From: Chloroflexota bacterium
GTDB lineage: Bacteria; Chloroflexota; Anaerolineae; UBA2200
Length of the DNA stretch: 64,000 nucleotides
NCBI GenBank assembly: GCA_014360755.1
Contig: JACIWX010000002.1
Span: forward strand, 124,001-188,000
Direction of reading: 5' to 3'
Positions 712 through 60,807 of the stretch are shown here, piece after piece (the stretch's first letter is position 1; the number at the start of each line of letters is the position of its first letter). A model generated the notes under the pieces. The model did no database searches. It was not told where the DNA came from and saw only the letters and a list, made by a program, of their open reading frames with translations. Position numbers and translations under genes: made by a program.

Positions 712-841
712 GAGAGTGTTGAAAAAGTCTTTTCAGTGTCATGCTGAACGAAGTGAAGCATCTCACAGTACTTGGGAAAGTGCGCCTAAAGTTACGCGAG
801 ACCCTTCGCTTGCTCAGGGTGACAAGATTTTCAACACTCTC
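712..841. mobile_element. MITE-like palindromic element, copy 1
   Basis: GAGAGTGTTGAAAA...TTTTCAACACTCTC terminal inverted repeats; flanks CACTCAT / CACACAT (6/7 match). Confidence 0.8.
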
Positions 842-2672: not shown

Positions 2673-3402
2673 ATGGCACAGCACGCAGCACGGATATTGG
2701 TTGTGGATGACGAGCAGGATTTGCTGTGGGCGTTGCAACGCCATCTGGGTGATGAGGGCTACGAGGTGCACACCGCAGAAGATGGGGTACAAGGCTTGCA
2801 ACTGGCGCGTGCGCATCACCCCCATCTCATTATCCTGGATGTCTCCATGCCCCGCATGGATGGGATTGAAATGTGTCGAGAACTGCGCCGAGATCCGACT
2901 CTGGCTGCCACGCCCGTCCTCTTCCTGACCATGCATGGTACGGTTGATGACCGCATCAAAGGGCTGGATGAAGGAGGGGACGATTACCTAGTCAAGCCTT
3001 TTGACATTGGTGAGTTGAAAGCGCGCGTGCGCGCGCTGCTCCGCCGGGTACCTTCTGCAGCAGAACCAGAAATCCAACCCCCAGGAGCATCTCTTGGTCG
3101 TTGGTGCGCTCATCCTGGACTTGCACCGCCGAGAAGCGCGTGTAGGGGACAAGGCAGTGATCCTTACGCCCACCGAGTTTGACCTCCTGTATTACCTCAT
3201 GAAGCATCCCGATGAAGTGTTCTCCAGCCAGAGGCTGCTTCAGGCACTGTGGGGCTATGTGCCCAACCCCGCCAGTGCCAGCGTGGTGCGCTGGCACATC
3301 AACAATATCCGTCGCAAGATTGAACCAGACCCCGACCACCCCGTCTTCATCCGCACTGTGTCACGCCACGGCTATATGCTGCCTCGGGAGAATCATCTCT
3401 AG
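2673..3402 (+). pseudogene. OmpR/PhoB-family response regulator, apparent frameshift between receiver and winged-helix domain
   Basis: ORF 2673..3182 carries the receiver (ILVVDDEQDLL, LIILDVSMPRMDG, DDYLVKPF); ORF 3094..3402 in another frame carries the wHTH (ILTPTEFDLLYYLMKHPDEVFSSQRLLQALWG...VVRWHINNIRRKIEPDPDHPVFIRTVSRHGYML). Confidence 0.85.
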
Positions 3403-3474
3403 CCCTCGTATTGGTTCACCGAGAGCGCAGAAAAAGCCCGCATTGTCATGCTGAGGCGAAGCCGAAGCATCTCG
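3390..3474 (+). repeat. 85-bp direct repeat, copy A (includes response-regulator stop codon)
   Basis: gaatcatctctagccctcgtattggttcaccgagagcgcagaaaaag...gaagcatctcg. Confidence 0.85.
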
Positions 3475-3549
3475 CAGTACTCGGGAAAATACGAAAGTTA
3501 CGCGAGACCCCTTCGTTGTACTCAGGGTGACAAGATTTTCAACACTCTC
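3421..3549. mobile_element. MITE-like element, diverged copy 2
   Basis: Same core (gtcatgctgaggcgaagccgaagcatctcgcagtactcgggaaaatacg...acgcgagaccccttcg...gacaagattttcaacactctc) with a diverged left end. Confidence 0.65.
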
Positions 3550-3634
3550 GAATCATCTCTAGCCCTTGTATCGGTTCACCGAGAGCGTAGAACAAGCCCG
3601 CATTGTCATGCTGAGGCGAAGCCGAAGCATCTCG
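3550..3634 (+). repeat. 85-bp direct repeat, copy B
   Basis: gaatcatctctagcccttgtatcggttcaccgagagcgtagaacaag...gaagcatctcg; about 4 mismatches to 3390..3474. Confidence 0.85.
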
Positions 3635-31241: not shown

Positions 31242-31372
31242 GAGGGTGTTGAAAAAGCCCTTCCAATGTCATGCTGAACGAAGTGAAGCATCTCGCAGTA
31301 CTCGAGGAAATGCGGCTAAAGTTACGCTAGACCCTTCGCTTCGCTCAGGGCGACAAGATTTTCAACACTTTT
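31242..31372. mobile_element. MITE-like palindromic element, copy 3
   Basis: GAGGGTGTTGAAAAAGCC...GACAAGATTTTCAACACTTTT; perfect 7-bp flanking direct repeat CCTATGA (31235..31241 and 31373..31379). Confidence 0.88.
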
Positions 31373-36913: not shown

Positions 36914-37467
36914 TGCGAGGGTTGGATATACTTTCTAGGCTCGTAGTAGCCTTGTGCCTGGGACTGGTGTTTGTTACAACCTACGGGTTGGGGAACACTT
37001 CGTGGGCTCTTCCAGGCCATGCCTCGCCTGGGCACACAATACCGACACTTCCACCCATAGACAGCACAGAGACGCCATCGCCCACACCTAGCTCGACCTT
37101 TACCTTGACACCGACTCCCATGGGGACGCCTCTTGCGACCAGTACGGCCACCCACACGATTACTCCGTCTCCCACTGCTTCGAGTACACCGGATATCACA
37201 AACACGCCATCCCTCACTGTGACTCCATCTCCCACTGCTTCGTGTACGCCGACTTCCACAGTTACACCGTCTCCTACTGTCTCGAACACACCGACCTTCA
37301 CAGCTACGCCGTCACCTACTGCTTCGAGCACATCAGCTATTACAGCTACTCCGTCGCCCATTGTCACGGAAAGCCTTACTCCCTCCCCCAGCCCAACGCC
37401 GCACAGGATAGCTTTCCTGCCATTTGTAGCCCGCCAAGTGAGACAGGAGCCACAGATCAACCAGTAG
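36913..37467 (+). CDS. Thr/Ser/Pro-rich secreted protein
   Basis: N-terminal signal-like LVVALCLGLVFVTTYGLGNTSWA; 14-aa repeats TVTPSPTVSNTPTF / TATPSPTASSTSAI; C-terminal RIAFLPFVARQ. Confidence 0.7.
   Translation: MRGLDILSRLVVALCLGLVFVTTYGLGNTSWALPGHASPGHTIPTLPPIDSTETPSPTPSSTFTLTPTPMGTPLATSTATHTITPSPTASSTPDITNTPSLTVTPSPTASCTPTSTVTPSPTVSNTPTFTATPSPTASSTSAITATPSPIVTESLTPSPSPTPHRIAFLPFVARQVRQEPQINQ
37160..37365. repeat. Degenerate 42-bp tandem repeat encoding Thr/Ser/Pro-rich linker
   Basis: acnccgtctcccactgcttcgagtacaccg... spaced at ~42 bp. Confidence 0.7.
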
Positions 37468-51663: not shown

Positions 51664-52191
51664 ATGACCATAGCCATCTACCCAGGTACTTTTGATCCCA
51701 TTACCAATGGCCACATAGATATTGCTACCCGTGCTTCTTCGCTCTTTGAACATTTGATTGTGGCGGTCTATGATCGGCCACTCAAAAACCTGCTGTTCTC
51801 CACCATGGAACGGGTGTCCATGGCAGGAGAGGCGCTGAAAGAGTTACCCAATGTTACCGTTCAGGCCTACAGCGGTTTGACGGTCAGGTTTGCCCGTAGT
51901 GTGGGCGCCCGTGTCATCGTACGCGGTTTGCGGGCACTGTCAGATTTCGAGTTAGAGTTTCAGATGGCCTTGACGAACCGCAAACTAGCCCCTGAGATCG
52001 ACACCGTGTGCTTGATCACCAGCCAGGAATACACTTTCCTGAGTTCCAGCGTCATTAAGGAGATCGCCATGGTGGGAGGGTGCGTGGATGCTATGGTCCC
52101 ACAGCATGTCGCTAGGGCTCTGAAAGAAAAGTTCCATTCCCTTGGTTCAGAAGCAGGCTCGAAAGTGCAGATTGTGTCGCTGCGGGATTAG
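51664..52191 (+). CDS. coaD: Pantetheine-phosphate adenylyltransferase
   Basis: TIAIYPGTFDPITNGHIDIATRASSLFEHLIVAVYDRP; SQEYTFLSSSVIKEIAMVGG. Confidence 0.97.
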   Translation: MTIAIYPGTFDPITNGHIDIATRASSLFEHLIVAVYDRPLKNLLFSTMERVSMAGEALKELPNVTVQAYSGLTVRFARSVGARVIVRGLRALSDFELEFQMALTNRKLAPEIDTVCLITSQEYTFLSSSVIKEIAMVGGCVDAMVPQHVARALKEKFHSLGSEAGSKVQIVSLRD

Positions 52192-52316
52192 TAGGAAACC
52201 AGGAAAAAGTAACCCCATGCCGATAGCGCGTGGCACCGGGAACGCTCGTTTAGCGCAGATGCTAGCTGGGTGAGCTCTACGAGGTGTACATCTTTCGATG
52301 AAAGGTGGTAATCACC

Positions 52317-52781
52317 ATGGACATCTTGACACTAATTGATCGTTTAGAAACCTTGGTCAATGAAGGTTGGCGTATCCCATTCACTGCGAAAACCGTTGTG
52401 GACGAAAATGCCTTCTTCGATCTCATTGACCAAATGCGCGTTTCTATTCCACAGGAGATAAAACGCGCCAATGACCTGCTCCAAGAGCGCGACCGCCTAT
52501 TGGCTACAGCGGCTCAAGAGGCTGAACGCATTATCGCAGAAGCGCGCGAAAAAGCAGCGCGTCTGGTGGATGAACATGAAATCGTCGCGGCAGCCCGCGC
52601 TGAGGCGGAAAGCATCAAAGCGGAGGCACAACGCGAGGCGGAGGACATTTGCAAAGGTGCAGATGAATATGCCATGGGTGTCCTCACCCAGTTAGAATCC
52701 GAGTTGTCCTCCTTGCTCAAGACTACTTCCAACGGCATCGAACAACTGCGCAGGGGGCGTATGCAGCCACCTTCTGAATAG
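52317..52781 (+). CDS. Coiled-coil protein (ATP synthase b-subunit/DivIVA-like composition)
   Basis: MDILTLIDRLETLVNEGWRIPFTAKTVVDENAFFDLIDQMRVSIPQEIKRANDLLQERDRLLATAAQEAERIIAEAREKAARLVDEHEI; downstream of coaD. Confidence 0.8.
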   Translation: MDILTLIDRLETLVNEGWRIPFTAKTVVDENAFFDLIDQMRVSIPQEIKRANDLLQERDRLLATAAQEAERIIAEAREKAARLVDEHEIVAAARAEAESIKAEAQREAEDICKGADEYAMGVLTQLESELSSLLKTTSNGIEQLRRGRMQPPSE

Positions 52782-52817
52782 GCGGTGCAAACCCGTTCGC
52801 GGCGTAAGCCAGACATG

Positions 52818-52971
52818 GAGAGTGTTGAAAAAGCCCTTTCAGTGTCATGCTGAACGAAGTGAAGCATCTCACAGTACTTGGGAAAATACGGCTAAAGTTA
52901 CGCGAGACCCCTTCGTTGTACTCAGGGCAGGCTCTTCGCTTGCTCAGGGTGACAAGATTTTCAACGCTCTC
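52818..52971. mobile_element. MITE-like palindromic element, copy 4 (long subtype)
   Basis: GAGAGTGTTGAAAAAGCCC...TTTTCAACGCTCTC; flanks AGACATG / AGGCATG (6/7 match). Confidence 0.83.
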
Positions 52972-53070
52972 AGGCATGAGCGTTTGACACAATACCCGCA
53001 GTGTCCTATAATGCGCCCTGCGGCAAACGCCGGGGACATATAACATTCTGAATGAGTAGGTATTCTTGCT

Positions 53071-53589
53071 GTGCGATTTAACGTAGCGCAATTGCTGAAA
53101 TCTCCTGCTGGCACCAGCAGAGAGTATGATCTTGATGAAGACATCACAGATATTGATGAGTACCTGGATGTTGTCGCTGCATTGATTGGCAGAGTCAGGT
53201 TCCTCCGAACAGACAACGGAATCCTTGTAACAGGACATGTACGGACAGAAATCCGTGTACCCTGTCGGCGTTGCCTAACACCGGTAACTGTGCTCATTGA
53301 ACTGGATTTGGAGGAGCAGTTCCGTCCTTCTGTGGACATATGGACTGGAGCGATCCTGCCTCTAGAACCGGGTGAAGAAGAAGCAACAAGGACTGATGCG
53401 CATCACATTCTAGATTTAACCGAAGTGGTGCGCCAGAATTTGCTCATTAATGTGCCTATGGCACCATTGTGCAGTCCGCAATGTCGGGGTTTGTGCCCGC
53501 AGTGCGGAGCCAATCTCAATGAAGGGCCATGCGGTTGTCATTATGAGGAAAGTGACCCCCGGCTGGCCATCTTACGTGGCTTGTTGTAG
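53071..53589 (+). CDS. DUF177/YceD-family protein
   Basis: VRTEIRVPCRRCLTPVTVLIELDLEEQFRP; PMAPLCSPQCRGLCPQCGANLNEGPCGC; upstream of rpmF. Confidence 0.93.
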   Translation: MRFNVAQLLKSPAGTSREYDLDEDITDIDEYLDVVAALIGRVRFLRTDNGILVTGHVRTEIRVPCRRCLTPVTVLIELDLEEQFRPSVDIWTGAILPLEPGEEEATRTDAHHILDLTEVVRQNLLINVPMAPLCSPQCRGLCPQCGANLNEGPCGCHYEESDPRLAILRGLL

Positions 53590-53614
53590 TCTATGTAGAA
53601 AGGAGTTCTGCGTC

Positions 53615-53815
53615 GTGGGAGCATTACCGAAAAGGAAAATATCGAAGGGACGGCGCGATCGCAGGCGCAGCCATCTGGCGCTGAAAACGACCAAGTTGGT
53701 GCCTTGCCCACAATGCCATGAATTGCGCCTTCCTCACCATGTATGCCCATCTTGTGGAAGTTACAAGGGTACTGAGGTAATCAAAATCAAGACGAAAGCC
53801 AAAAAAGAATCTTAG
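53615..53815 (+). CDS. rpmF: 50S ribosomal protein L32
   Basis: GTG start; VGALPKRKISKGRRDRRRSHLALKTTKLVPCPQCHELRLPHHVCPSCGSYKG. Confidence 0.95.
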   Translation: MGALPKRKISKGRRDRRRSHLALKTTKLVPCPQCHELRLPHHVCPSCGSYKGTEVIKIKTKAKKES

Positions 53816-53832
53816 CATGAGCACTGCTGGAC

Positions 53833-53962
53833 GAGAGTGTTGAAAAAGCCTTTCCAATGTCATGCTGAACGGAGTGAAGCATCTCGCAGTACTTGGGAAA
53901 AGAGGCTAAAGTTACGCGAGGCCCTTCGCTTCGCTCAGGGTGACAAGATTTTTCAACACTCT
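53833..53962. mobile_element. MITE-like palindromic element, copy 5
   Basis: GAGAGTGTTGAAAAAGCC...TTTTTCAACACTCT; CTGGAC repeated at 53827..53832 and 53963..53968. Confidence 0.85.
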
Positions 53963-54035
53963 CTGGACCAAGAAACATGGTGTAAGCAAAACATGCAGCG
54001 GAAAGGTCTCATGCGAAAAGTACGGGGATAGCCTG

Positions 54036-54998
54036 ATGATCAAAACACAACTCTGCGATTTGCTGGGTATTGAACATCCCATTCTACAAGGGGGGATGGC
54101 TTGGGTTTCCACGCCGCCTCTAGTAGTGGCTGTCTCTGCAGCGGGTGCTTTGGGTATCTTGGGAGCAGGGAATGCCCCGCCCAATTTGGTGGAAACGCAG
54201 GTACGTGAGATCAAAGCGCGCACCCATAAACCCTTTGGGGTAAACGTACCCATGTTTTCCCCGTTTGTGCAAGATGTCTTGGATATCTGTGTGCGCGAAA
54301 AGGTGCCTGTGGTTACTACAGGAGCGGGGAATCCCAGCTCCTATATTCCTGCGCTCAAGCAGGCTGGCATTCGAGTCATACCGGTAGTAGGGTCTGTGGC
54401 GCTCGCCAAACGACTGGAGCGAGCGGGAGCGGATGCAGTGATCGCTGAGGGAATGGAATCAGGCGGTCATATTGGCGATGTAGGAACGTTACCCTTGGTG
54501 CCTCAGGTGGTGGATGCAGTGAAGATTCCTGTCATCGCAGCCGGAGGGATTGCCGATGGACGTGGTTTGGCAGCAGCGCTCGCACTAGGAGCAGTGGGCA
54601 TCCAGATGGGCACGCGCTTTATTTGCACCAAGGAGTGCGCTGTACACCCGAATTACAAAGACATGATTGTCAAAGCCGGTGACCGTGCGACCATTACTAC
54701 GGGGCACAGCCTGGGCCATCCCGTGCGTGCTCTGCGCAACCCGATGACACGCAAATTCGAAGAGATGGAGAAGCAAAGCCTTACCGAAGAGGCTCTGATC
54801 GAGTTTGGCACGGGCAAGCTGCGACTGGCTGCCATAGAAGGGGATGTAGTAGAAGGTTCATTTATGGCCGGGCAAAGTTGTGGCTTGGTGCACGATATCC
54901 CGTCGGTAGCAGAATTGATCCAACGCATTATTTCCGAGGCAGAGGGAATCTTGCTGCATTTGCCGCGTTACGTTATCCATGGCAGTAACTCCCGATGA
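54036..54998 (+). CDS. fabK: Enoyl-ACP reductase II / nitronate monooxygenase family
   Basis: LLGIEHPILQGGMAWVSTPPLVVAVSAAGALGILGAG; AGADAVIAEGMESGGHIG; PVIAAGGIADGRGLAAALALGAVGIQMGTRF; in operon with fabD and fabG. Confidence 0.9.
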   Translation: MIKTQLCDLLGIEHPILQGGMAWVSTPPLVVAVSAAGALGILGAGNAPPNLVETQVREIKARTHKPFGVNVPMFSPFVQDVLDICVREKVPVVTTGAGNPSSYIPALKQAGIRVIPVVGSVALAKRLERAGADAVIAEGMESGGHIGDVGTLPLVPQVVDAVKIPVIAAGGIADGRGLAAALALGAVGIQMGTRFICTKECAVHPNYKDMIVKAGDRATITTGHSLGHPVRALRNPMTRKFEEMEKQSLTEEALIEFGTGKLRLAAIEGDVVEGSFMAGQSCGLVHDIPSVAELIQRIISEAEGILLHLPRYVIHGSNSR

Positions 54999-55966
54999 AC
55001 AGCGAGGAATTGAAGGCTCCAACACAGAACAAGTTGGCATTTGTCTTCCCCGGCAGCGGCTCTCAGTATGTCGGCATGGGCCGGGATATATATGACCAGT
55101 ACCCGGCTGCAAGACGCCTTTTCGAAGAAGCGGATGCTGTCCTCCAATTTCCCCTATCTCGGTTGTGTTTCGAGGGGCCGGAAGAAGAACTGATGGACGC
55201 AGTCAATGTCCAACCCGCTATGGTTACCGTTAGCGCCGCGTTGTTGGTTGCTTTACGGGAACACTCGCTTCTGGGGAGTACACGCCAAGGGGTATCCCCT
55301 GCTTTCGTGGCAGGCCATAGCACGGGGGAATATACGGCTTTATTTGCAGCCGCGGTGCTTGATTTCCCCTCGCTGTTGCGCCTAGTTCGCGAGCGTGGTC
55401 GTTTGATGCGCGAGGCAGGAAATGAAGAGCCAGGTGCCATGGCAGCAGTATTAGGTCTAGAAGCAGCACCATTGCACGCTATTTGCGCTGCGGTAGGTGA
55501 TGTATGGGTTGCGAACGACAACGCGCCCGGGCAAATCGTGCTTTCGGGCAGCAAACCGGCATTGGAAAAAGCGCTGCAACTGGCTATGGAGAGAGGGGCC
55601 AAAAGAGTCGTCCCATTGGCGGTAAACATTGCGTCTCACTCTCCGTTGATGGGACCCGCCGCAGCATCCTTTGCAGCAATCCTAGATGGGTTGACATTGA
55701 AAAAGGCGCAGGTGCCTATCGTGGGCAATGTCACTGCCACAGCCTTGGTGGAGCCAGCGGATATTCGCCGTGAGTTGGTACAGCACCTCACTTCCTCGGT
55801 GCGCTGGGTGGAATCGGTGCGTTACATGATCGCTCATGGCGTGCAAACGTTTATCGAGATTGGCCCAAAGGATGTGTTGAGCGGGTTGATCAAGCGCATT
55901 GACCGCAATGTGCGTGTTTTCCATGTGGGTACAGTGCAGGATATAGAGGCACTGGAGGGGCTATGA
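54995..55966 (+). CDS. fabD: Malonyl-CoA:ACP transacylase
   Basis: [53 protein letters not shown] overlap with the previous gene. Confidence 0.95.
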
Positions 55967-56712
55967 GAGAATTAACAGGTCGGGTAGCTGTCGTAACTGG
56001 TGCGTCGCGTGGAATTGGGCGTGCTATCGCGGTGAAACTAGCCAGCCTGGGAGCAAAAGTAGTAGTCAATTATCGCAGCAATCAGGCGGCGGCGGAGGAA
56101 GTCGTCCAACAGATCCAGGGAATGGGCGGGGAGGCGATCGCGGTACAAGCCGATGTCAGCAATTACGCAGAGGCACAGAGGTTGATTCAAAATGCGTTGG
56201 ATCACTTTGGGCGGCTGGATATCTTGGTGAACAATGCAGGTACCACCCGTGATGCGCTTTTGGTGCGCATGTCCGAAGAGGATTGGGATGTCGTGATTAA
56301 CACCAATTTGAAAGGGGCGTTCAATTGCACCAAGGCTGCCCAGCGTACAATGATCAAGCAGCGTTACGGTCGTATCGTCAATATTACTTCCATCGCGGGG
56401 CTGGCTGGCAATCCAGGCCAGGCAAACTATGCTGCCGCCAAAGCAGGCCTGGTTGGTTTTACCAAAGCAGTGGCCAAAGAGTTGGGCTCGCGCAATATCA
56501 CCGTCAATGCGGTGGCCCCGGGCTATGTCCCTACGGATTTGACTGCTACCTTACCTCCGGAGTTAGTCGCAAAAGGCATAGAAATGACACCCTTAGGCCG
56601 CCCAGGAACCCCAGAGGATATTGCGAACGCGGTGGCTTTTCTGGTTTCTGATGAAGCGAGTTATATTACTGGACAGGTGTTGTCTGTAGATGGCGGATTG
56701 GCAATGCAGTAA
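55963..56712 (+). CDS. fabG: 3-oxoacyl-ACP reductase
   Basis: [81 protein letters not shown]. Confidence 0.96.
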
Positions 56713-56740
56713 TGGTGATAAAGGAGAAGGAGAAAGCTCA

Positions 56741-57076
56741 ATGACAGAGCGCAAATTGGGGACAGTGGTCATTTCTCCAGCGGTTCTAGCAACCATCGCC
56801 CGACTGACGACGCTGTCCGTGCCGGGCGTGGTGCAGATGAGTCCATTCGGCGTGCACCGATTCTTGGGAGCACGCCAAGGCGGCGGTGTCAAAGTGCAGG
56901 TCATTGATGAAGCAGTGATCCTAGATATCTACATCGTTGCTGCTGCCGATGTCAATATGTTACAATTGAGCCGCGAGATACAGTCCAAAGTGGCTCGTGC
57001 GATTCGCGAAATCGTGGGCATGGCTGTCAATGAAGTGAACGTGCACATCGTGGATGTGGAGGCGCCCTCAGGTTAG
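56741..57076 (+). CDS. Asp23/Gls24-family protein (paralogue 2)
   Basis: LGTVVISPAVLATIARLTTLSVPGVVQMSP...VILDIYIVAAADVNMLQLSREIQSKVARAIREIVGMAVNEVNVHIVDVE. Confidence 0.92.
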   Translation: MTERKLGTVVISPAVLATIARLTTLSVPGVVQMSPFGVHRFLGARQGGGVKVQVIDEAVILDIYIVAAADVNMLQLSREIQSKVARAIREIVGMAVNEVNVHIVDVEAPSG

Positions 57077-57085
57077 GGTTCATAG

Positions 57086-57511
57086 ATGAAAACCAGGCGT
57101 CAAGCCCGTATTGTGGCTTTGCAAACCTTATTCGAAGTGGATAGTGTACACCATCCAGCCAAGGTGGTCTTGGCACAGCGCTTCGCGGAGAAGCCTTTGC
57201 CGGCTGAAGGAAAGGCTTTTGCCAGACAGTTGGTCATGGGGGTATTGGAGCACCAGCCTGCTCTGGATGCAATTATCCAGAGCATTGCAACCGATTGGCC
57301 ATTGGAACAGATGGCCATTGTAGACCGGAACATCTTGCGCATTGCAGTCTACGAAATCACAGTAGATGGGCAAACACCGGTGAAAGTGGCAATCAATGAA
57401 GCAGTGGAGCTAGCCAAGCTATTTGGAAGTGATAGTTCGCGACGCTTTGTCAATGGAGTATTGGGTACGCTGGTGTCCAATCGTGGTATCGTGTCCGAGG
57501 AGCAGGTTTGA
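57086..57511 (+). CDS. nusB: Transcription antitermination factor NusB
   Basis: RRQARIVALQTLFEVDSV; AIVDRNILRIAVYEI; KVAINEAVELAKLFGSDSSRRFVNGVLGTL. Confidence 0.96.
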   Translation: MKTRRQARIVALQTLFEVDSVHHPAKVVLAQRFAEKPLPAEGKAFARQLVMGVLEHQPALDAIIQSIATDWPLEQMAIVDRNILRIAVYEITVDGQTPVKVAINEAVELAKLFGSDSSRRFVNGVLGTLVSNRGIVSEEQV

Positions 57512-57557
57512 CGGCATGATTTTGCGGAGAACTGATTGACAAAGGCAGTCTGACTAA

Positions 57558-57711
57558 GAGGGTGTTGAAAAAGCTCTTCCAATGTCATGCTGAACGAAGT
57601 GAAGCATCTCGCAATACTCGGGAAAATACGGCTAAAGTTACGCGAGACCCCTTCGTTATACTCAGGGCAGGCTCTTCGCTTCGCTCAGGGTGACAAGATT
57701 TTCAACACTCT
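57558..57711. mobile_element. MITE-like palindromic element, copy 6 (long subtype)
   Basis: GAGGGTGTTGAAAAAGC...GATTTTCAACACTC; TCTGACTAAGAG present at 57549..57560 and 57711..57722. Exact boundaries ambiguous by a few bases. Confidence 0.92.
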
Positions 57712-57743
57712 CTGACTAAGAGGATGCGCTAAGGGTAGGCTCT

Positions 57744-58454
57744 ATGGCGAATGAAGTACAGATGACTGTTATCGAACACCTGGAGGAACTGCGTCAGCGT
57801 TTGCTGAAATGCTTGATTGCAGTGGCGGTTACAACCACTCTGTCTTTTGCCTTCACCACCCAAATTATGCGCATTCTGATTGCTCCAGCAGGCATCAAAC
57901 CAGTTTTCCTGCGGCCTACAGAGATGTTCATCACCTATTTCAGGGTAGCCTTGCTGTCCGGTAGTATTTTGGCGATGCCGGTGATTGTGTACCAGGTTAT
58001 CCAATTTATATGGCCAGGCCTTCAGAGCAGCGAGCGCTCTTATGTACGCATTATCGTCCCAGCAGCGACGCTCTCTTTTATCCTAGGAGTGCTATTCACC
58101 TATTTTGTGCTGTTGCCTTTTTCTTTGCGCTATTTGGTTTCCTTTGGCGGTGATCTGGTAGAGGCCAAGTGGGCCATTGGTGAGTATATCTCATTTGTGA
58201 CCACGCTCCTCTTTTGGTCTGGCGTGGTTTTCGAAACGCCGCTGATTGTCTACTTCCTGGCACGTTGGCGTATTGTCTCACCGCAATTTCTGTCACGGAA
58301 TCGCAAATTTGCCGTCTTGCTCATTGCGGTGATTGCGGCGGTCATCACGCCCACCCCCGATCCCTTCAACATGGGGTTGGTGATGATTCCCTTATTGCTG
58401 ATGTACGAAGCGGGTATTCTATTGGCCAAACTGGCCTATCGAGGGCGTTCGTGA
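57744..58454 (+). CDS. tatC: Sec-independent protein translocase TatC
   Basis: TVIEHLEELRQRLLKCLIAVAVTTTLSFAF; ELRQR and PTPDPFNMGLVMIPLLLMYEAGILLAKL. Confidence 0.95.
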   Translation: MANEVQMTVIEHLEELRQRLLKCLIAVAVTTTLSFAFTTQIMRILIAPAGIKPVFLRPTEMFITYFRVALLSGSILAMPVIVYQVIQFIWPGLQSSERSYVRIIVPAATLSFILGVLFTYFVLLPFSLRYLVSFGGDLVEAKWAIGEYISFVTTLLFWSGVVFETPLIVYFLARWRIVSPQFLSRNRKFAVLLIAVIAAVITPTPDPFNMGLVMIPLLLMYEAGILLAKLAYRGRS

Positions 58455-58508
58455 AAAACGCCCCAACGTCGTAACTGCATTTTATCCAAGGTCGAAGGAG
58501 CCTTTGGA

Positions 58509-59432
58509 ATGCCCCCTATCAAGAATTACCAGCAGTTGCTTGCAGCAGCCGCTGCGGTAGGGCCAGTCCCGGTGGTGATTGCTGCGGCACATGAATACGA
58601 AGTGTTGCAAGCTGCCTGCGAAGCACAGGCACAAGGTATCATTCGTGCTATACTGGTCGGGCGCGCTCAGAGCATCCGCCAAATTGCCCACGCAAACGGC
58701 TTAAACCTTGGCACGATGCACATCATAGACGAGGAAGATGAGGCAACCGCGGCTGAGAAAGCCATGCGCCTGGTGTCCCAGGGTGAAGCGAAGGTGGCCA
58801 TTAAGGGACAAGTGCAAACTAGCACTTTTCTCCGTGCAGCCTTGGCGCGTGAGGTGGGCTTGAGAACGAATCGCCTAATTTCCCATGTGGGCGTTTTTGA
58901 AGTGCCCGGTTTCGACCGTTTGCTTTTCATCTCGGATGGCGGCGTTGTGCTCTATCCCACCAAAGAGCAGAAAATTGAGATCATCAGCAATAGCATTGCT
59001 GTAGCGCGTGGATTTGGCATTCAACAGCCGAAAGTAGCTCTTTTGGCTGCTGCGGATGAGGTTGTTGCGGACCTGCCGGTAACTGTTGAGATTGCTGAAA
59101 TTGTTGCCATCATGCAAGAGCGGTGGCTGGCGGAGGGCGCGTTGGTAGATGGGCCTTTTCTCCTCGATACGGCGGTGTCACCTGAGATCGCCAGACAGCG
59201 CGGGCGGGTCGGGCCAGTTGCTGGCTATGCCGAAGTGTTGGTTGGCCCAGACGTAGAATCCGTAAATATCATGGCGAAAGGGATTACGTATTTCGCTGGA
59301 GGCCGCATGGCCGGCTTAGTAGTTGGTGGGAAAGTGCCTTTGGTGGTTGGCTCACGGGCTGATCCCCCTGAGACACGTCTCGTGTGTATCGCTGCCGGAG
59401 CTTTGCTCGCGGCAGAATATGGGAATTCTTAG
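58509..59432 (+). CDS. Phosphate acetyl/butyryltransferase-family protein
   Basis: EYEVLQAACEAQAQGIIRAILVGR; AEKAMRLVSQGEAKVAIKGQVQTSTFLRAAL; EIARQRGRVGPVAGYAEVLVGPDVESVNIMAKGITYFAGGRMAGLVVGGKVPLVVGSRADP. Confidence 0.9.
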   Translation: MPPIKNYQQLLAAAAAVGPVPVVIAAAHEYEVLQAACEAQAQGIIRAILVGRAQSIRQIAHANGLNLGTMHIIDEEDEATAAEKAMRLVSQGEAKVAIKGQVQTSTFLRAALAREVGLRTNRLISHVGVFEVPGFDRLLFISDGGVVLYPTKEQKIEIISNSIAVARGFGIQQPKVALLAAADEVVADLPVTVEIAEIVAIMQERWLAEGALVDGPFLLDTAVSPEIARQRGRVGPVAGYAEVLVGPDVESVNIMAKGITYFAGGRMAGLVVGGKVPLVVGSRADPPETRLVCIAAGALLAAEYGNS

Positions 59433-59484
59433 CCGCAGAGGCTGCGAGAACTTGCTTTCTACACTTTTCAGAGGAGATACTTCG

Positions 59485-60807
59485 ATGAAGAAGAGCAGAG
59501 TGTTAATTATGGGTGCGGCGGGACGCGATTTTCACAATTTTAACGTGTGTTTTCGCAATAACCCCCTTTATGAAGTGGTAGCCTTCACTGCCACGCAAAT
59601 ACCCAATATCGAAGGTCGCACCTACCCTCCAGAGTTGGCTGGCGAACTCTACCCCGCTGGCATCCCCATTTATCCCGAAGACGAACTCGACAAACTCGTC
59701 CGTGAGTTGGATATAGACCAGGTGGTCTTTGCTTACAGTGATGTGCCTCATGAGTACGTGATGCACAAAGCGTCCCAGGTGCTGGCGGCAGGCGCTGATT
59801 TCCGTTTGATGGGCACTAAAGAGACCATGCTGAAGGCTAAAGTCCCAGTGGTTTCTGTATGTGCCGTGCGTACTGGGAGTGGGAAAAGCCAGACAACACG
59901 GCGTGTTTCGGACATCCTGCGCCAGATGGGGAAAAAAGTAGTCGTCGTGCGGCATCCCATGCCTTATGGCAATCTGGTCAAACAGATTTGCCAGCGCTTT
60001 GCCACTTACGACGACCTAGATAAGTACGAGTGTACCATTGAAGAGCGCGAAGAATACGAACCTCATCTGGATAGAGGCACCATTGTCTACGCGGGTGTGG
60101 ATTACGAACGGATTCTGCGCCAGGCGGAGCAGGAAGCGGAGATCCTCTTATGGGATGGCGGTAACAACGATTTGCCGTTTTACCGACCTGATCTACATAT
60201 CGTGGTTACAGACCCCCACCGTGCCGGCCATGAACTGCGTTATCATCCCGGTGAAGCCAATTTGCGCATGGCGGACGTGGTTGTCATTAACAAGATAGAT
60301 ACATCGCAGCCAGACAAGATGGAAATAGTCCGTCACAATATCCTTGCGGTGAATCCCCGTGCCACTGTTGTGGACGCAGCGTCGCCTATCTTTGTGGATG
60401 ACCCCCAGGCAATCAGGGGACGCAAGGTCTTGGTAGTCGAGGATGGGCCAACCCTGACTCACGGAGAGATGTCTTACGGAGCGGGAGTTGTAGCAGCACG
60501 GCGCTTTGGAGCGGCTGAGATTGCCGATCCACGGCCCTACGCGGTCGGCTCGATTGCGGAAACTTACCGCAAGTACCCCAATACCGGCCCCGTATTGCCT
60601 GCAATGGGCTACGGTGCCAAGCAAATTCAAGAGTTGGAACAAACGATTAACGCCACACCCTGTGATTTGGTCATCGTGGCTACGCCAATTGATCTGCGGC
60701 GGGTGATCCAGATCAACCGGCCGATGCAACGCGTGCGCTATGAACTGCAAGAAATTGGGCGACCCACCTTGCAGGATGTGCTCAGCGCACGATTCAATTT
60801 TGACTAG
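59485..60807 (+). CDS. GTPase related to cyclic 2,3-diphosphoglycerate synthetase
   Basis: VLIMGAAGRDFHNFNVCFRNNPLYEVVAFTATQIPNIEGRTYPPELAG; VSVCAVRTGSGKSQTTRRVSDILRQMGKKVVVVRHPMPYG; ADVVVINKIDTSQPDKMEIV. Confidence 0.85.
   Translation: MKKSRVLIMGAAGRDFHNFNVCFRNNPLYEVVAFTATQIPNIEGRTYPPELAGELYPAGIPIYPEDELDKLVRELDIDQVVFAYSDVPHEYVMHKASQVLAAGADFRLMGTKETMLKAKVPVVSVCAVRTGSGKSQTTRRVSDILRQMGKKVVVVRHPMPYGNLVKQICQRFATYDDLDKYECTIEEREEYEPHLDRGTIVYAGVDYERILRQAEQEAEILLWDGGNNDLPFYRPDLHIVVTDPHRAGHELRYHPGEANLRMADVVVINKIDTSQPDKMEIVRHNILAVNPRATVVDAASPIFVDDPQAIRGRKVLVVEDGPTLTHGEMSYGAGVVAARRFGAAEIADPRPYAVGSIAETYRKYPNTGPVLPAMGYGAKQIQELEQTINATPCDLVIVATPIDLRRVIQINRPMQRVRYELQEIGRPTLQDVLSARFNFD

Follow-up and report, generated by a model that had tools for sequence, protein, structure and literature searches.

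The palindromic repeats scattered through the window, that is, the whole stretch of 64,000 nucleotides analysed here, belong to a family that very probably represents MITEs moved in trans by a transposase from an IS of the IS5/IS1182 type that carries matching ends, to judge from sequence comparisons. The host is a Chloroflexota bacterium of the class Anaerolineae, whose draft genome (G000) comprises 2.98 Mb and is 94% complete. The elements are short, non-coding, and multi-copy, have their ends in common with an IS, are flanked by a duplication of fixed length, and occupy sites that are empty in a relative. An IS5/IS1182-type transposase would recognize the MITE ends, excise or copy the element, and join it at a staggered cut of ~7 bp, and repair of the gaps would then leave direct repeats of 6–8 bp around it.

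A first-pass annotation counted six copies of one element in the window. Five of these are clean (712, 31242, 52818, 53833, and 57558), whereas the one at 3421 is a mosaic. The copies, with the flanking duplications of the sixth, are as follows:

57558..57712, + strand: MITE copy 6, 155 bp, ends GAGGGTGTTGAAAAA...TTTTCAACACTCTC, directly 5′ of the ORF starting at 57744
57551..57557, no strand: left target duplication of copy 6, TGACTAA
57713..57719, no strand: right target duplication of copy 6, TGACTAA (7/7 versus left)
53833..53963, + strand: MITE copy 5, 131 bp, duplication CTGGAC (6/6), site empty in the same-genus genome G001
52818..52971, + strand: MITE copy 4, 154 bp, duplication AGACATG/AGGCATG (6/7), site empty in G001
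31242..31372, + strand: MITE copy 3, 131 bp, duplication CCTATGA (7/7)
712..841, + strand: MITE copy 1, 130 bp, duplication CACTCAT/CACACAT (6/7)
3421..3549, + strand: copy 2, a mosaic of two sub-families with a degenerate left end, within a 160-bp tandem duplication (3390–3634)

Intact GAGRGTGTTGAAAA...TTTTCAACACTCTC ends and a flanking duplication of 6–7 bp are thus present in five of the six copies, the CTGGAC of copy 5 having one base in common with the right element end. The duplications read by hand at copies 1, 3, 4, and 5 were recovered as noted (6/7, 7/7, 6/7, and 6/6), while the 12-bp repeat reported around copy 6 is reduced to TGACTAA (7/7), the remainder being a GAG found, by coincidence, in the element end as well as behind the right copy. 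Copy 2 has an intact right half and a left end, GAGCGCAGAAAAAGCCCGC, from the other sub-family; it shows no duplication of its own because of this foreign left end and its location in the tandem duplication (repeat D5), which combines segments from two MITE sub-families; these seem to have recombined at a GAAGCATCTCG motif that both contain.

Searching the 2.98-Mb draft genome for the end GAGNGTGTTGAAAA gave 198 exact matches and 263 at ≤1 mismatch, against none at either setting for the reversed control; the 263 ends therefore correspond to roughly 130 MITE copies. The elements carry terminal inverted repeats of ~15 bp (GAGRGTGTTGAAAAA), range from 96 to 204 bp in length, and lie between genes according to an ORF heuristic. 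Their main size classes are about 131, 154, and 178–204 bp, with palindromic inserts in the arms distinguishing the larger ones; the interior of a second sub-family is different. Nearest-neighbour identity among copies reaches 99.2% with a median of 95.7%, and MITE activity therefore appears to have been fairly recent. Solitary ends were considered as candidates for a full IS, and those inspected were MITEs with one diverged end. No match was obtained when viral contigs were scanned with the MITE pattern or when phages were searched with the MITE. Elements with the same ends and unrelated interiors are present in further genera and families within Anaerolineae (L070 in G084, L086 in G098, L089 in G001, and L090 in G002), that of G084 being 90 bp long with a 7-bp duplication.

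The duplication of ~7 bp seen in the window holds across the genome. Among 80 aligned copies, with boundaries set at GAG/CTC, exact duplications of 6 bp (n = 12), 7 bp (n = 26), or 8 bp (n = 10) flank 48; one further copy has a 9-bp duplication, and 17 have a duplication with one mismatch. In total, a duplication of at least 6 bp with ≤1 mismatch is found in 66 of the 80 copies, far above chance: shuffling the right flanks among copies yields ~0.7 exact duplications and ~0.8 with one mismatch, or ~1.5 in all, and shifted flanks give at most one. The length is fixed, with a mode of 7 and a range of 6–8 bp. At the 26 exact 7-bp targets, C immediately precedes 16 and G immediately follows 11.

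Orthologous sites could be compared in G001, contig C4 of which is syntenic with the right-hand part of the window. The conserved flanks of copies 4 (52818), 5 (53833), and 6 (57558) are separated by 30, 72, and 72 bp in G001 versus 189, 220, and 234 bp in the host, respectively, so the element is absent from the orthologous gap for all three testable copies, with the exact empty-site junction unreadable because the intergenic flanks have diverged. Synteny is lost beside copy 1, and copy 3 is unspanned by a syntenic match. Together, the fixed duplication and the empty sites bear out the proposal that these repeats arose by transposase-mediated insertion and are not merely repetitive extragenic sequence. 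G001 itself has 13 exact ends; those inspected belong to a 119-bp element whose interior differs and whose duplication is 6 bp long (L089) and to degenerate relatives (L260 and L264). Given these findings, the expansion looks lineage-specific, and we infer that MITE copy number grew mostly in the lineage of the host.

The probable partner, an IS with matching ends that the first-pass annotation missed and suggested seeking, lies on contig C19, where the single DDE_Tnp_1 match of the whole genome is located (L062). This IS (L062 823–2216, 1.39 kb) is bounded by GAGAGTGTTGAAAAAG and GAGGGTGTTGAAAAAG, 1394 bp apart, which are the same 15-bp ends as those of the MITE; the ends alone are common, the interiors being unrelated. 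Outside the MITEs, end-pattern searches returned only the two ends of this IS, other pattern searches gave MITE ends only, and a second IS bounded by such ends did not turn up in the 94%-complete draft. The transposase has DUF772 and DDE_Tnp_1 domains that extend across two frames, since an additional G, the seventh in a G-run (L062:1455–1470), interrupts its reading frame, and the split copy scores 80.7 + 60.2 against the NCBIfam model IS5_4 (cut-off 140). With the frame broken, a normal protein could not be made unless by frameshifting or slippage, or unless the G is an assembly error, which renders current mobility uncertain. The run differs among three related IS copies, with 7 (L062:1455–1470), 5 (L153:795), and 6 G (L154:493); six alone keeps the frame, the G006 copies being out of frame with G5 and in frame with G6. 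It is quite unlikely, compared with decay or assembly error, that the run serves as a slippage-prone on/off switch for the IS and for bursts of MITE movement.

Most relatives of the C19 transposase are encoded by one ORF of 386–428 aa, and these IS carry the same ends as the C19 copy. Four of the five full-length relatives pass the IS5_4 cut-off of 140 (145.5, 151.3, 145.9, and 156.9; the fifth scores 135.9), while the IS1182 model NF033551 gives them 187–212 bits, under its cut-off of 270, yet is the best model by E-value. Duplications of 8, 8, and 6 bp flank the copies at L155, L164/L183, and L166, respectively. None was found at L159, L160, L162, and L163, for which both flanks are present, and longer duplications of up to 1 kb were sought without success at the IS copies that have no short one. 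IS1272, of the IS1182 family, is reported to replace target inverted repeats and to generate no duplication (PMC5678879); such replacement was considered for five duplication-less IS copies and rejected, as their flanks are not complementary. The strongest test came from IS-bearing contigs matching those of Bellilinea caldifistulae GOMI-1 (G201), with 15 left and 18 right IS ends near contig borders. Here, 13 of the 15 left flanks have a matching right flank, the match extending over 7 bp (n = 7), 8 bp (n = 3), 9 bp (n = 1), or 10 bp (n = 2). The matched flanks are mostly on different contigs, so that the pairing is made by the duplication itself, but it is convincing because the number expected at 7 bp is as small as 0.016. 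With the transposase as query, tblastn against plasmids gave no match and viral contigs one distant match.

Since the resident IS has the same ends and its relatives give the same 7-bp duplication, movement in trans by a transposase encoded outside the window, as originally suggested, is supported. A C19-type transposase, from an intact earlier copy of the IS or a close relative, is the inferred mover. Against the C19 IS itself in this role stand its broken frame, the lack of a visible duplication around it, and the four duplication-less relatives, and another IS may be missing from the assembly.

The absence of duplications around the C19 copy and at several of its close relatives also speaks for a different course of events, in which a transposase of another family with the same ends moved the MITE and the C19 IS is a bystander. 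In keeping with this, a transposase in G027 (L082) that seems to be unrelated is followed by a similar end, GAGGGTGTGGAATAA, and other Anaerolineae families (G066, G080, G084, and G098) have 52–168 such ends with no P0002-like transposase at E ≤ 1e-20. However, the host genome yielded no second IS bounded by such ends, and the Bellilinea relatives of the C19 IS produce exactly the 7-bp duplication, which makes a bystander unlikely.

It is very improbable that the MITE is kept as a host-selected RNA or terminator element whose mobility is only ancestral. The whole element folds up as a single long hairpin, whichever strand is taken, with an MFE well below that of shuffled sequences (−59.5 versus −37.7 ± 3.9; −62.0 versus −32.4 ± 3.9), and between co-directional genes 17 copies are oriented with the genes and 4 against (two-sided binomial ~0.007), a bias that is small and unexplained. 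Nevertheless, no compensatory base-pair changes occur in 48 predicted pairs across 27 copies, a long hairpin without covariation being as expected from the palindromic build; an Rfam search of window positions 52000–60000, around copies 4–6, gave zero matches; and the sites are not conserved in G001. Spread as a REP/BIME-type repeat by a RAYT, the HUH transposase of REP/REPIN systems, which are not known to leave a target duplication, can practically be dismissed despite the intergenic, palindromic, high-copy nature of the MITE and the GCGAAGCGAAG palindromes inside it, because its ends match a DDE IS and fixed duplications, such as the 7-bp ones here, are not expected from Y1/HUH transposition.

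MITEs with IS1182-type ends are already known. MITEPye1 of Paracoccus yeei, with IS1182-family ends of 18 bp, 4-bp duplications, and 1–3 chromosomal copies, resembles the present family in having IS-type ends and no transposase, in forming hairpins, in its intergenic location, and in its presumed movement in trans (PMC11578231). In contrast, the present family has ~15-bp ends, ~7-bp duplications, and roughly 130 copies; what is new is a family with a 7-bp duplication and a high copy number. The Anaerolineae IS5/IS1182-type IS (B. caldifistulae, L164, and L155) have the same terminal repeats, duplications of 6–10 bp, and DUF772 plus DDE_Tnp_1 domains, but differ from the MITE in being autonomous, 1.34–1.47 kb long, and unrelated in their interiors. 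A 7-bp duplication in this group is of interest in that the IS1182-family examples compared here show 4 bp (PMC11578231, PMC3281130) or, as for IS1272, none; the IS1272 transposase family is related by NCBIfam model, whereas the MITE here does duplicate its target. REP/REPIN-RAYT repeats are likewise intergenic palindromes of high copy number moved in trans (PMC2817692, PMC3116915), unlike the present family with its DDE-type ends and duplication. No described MITE in Anaerolineae was found in the literature searched, and the case is complete in that the copies and the length of their duplication, the empty sites, and an IS as plausible partner are all documented; it is otherwise ordinary biology, a clear but ordinary bacterial MITE. 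Elsewhere in the window, at 37144–37347, there are tandem repeats of 42–60 bp (family D4), apparently within an ORF.
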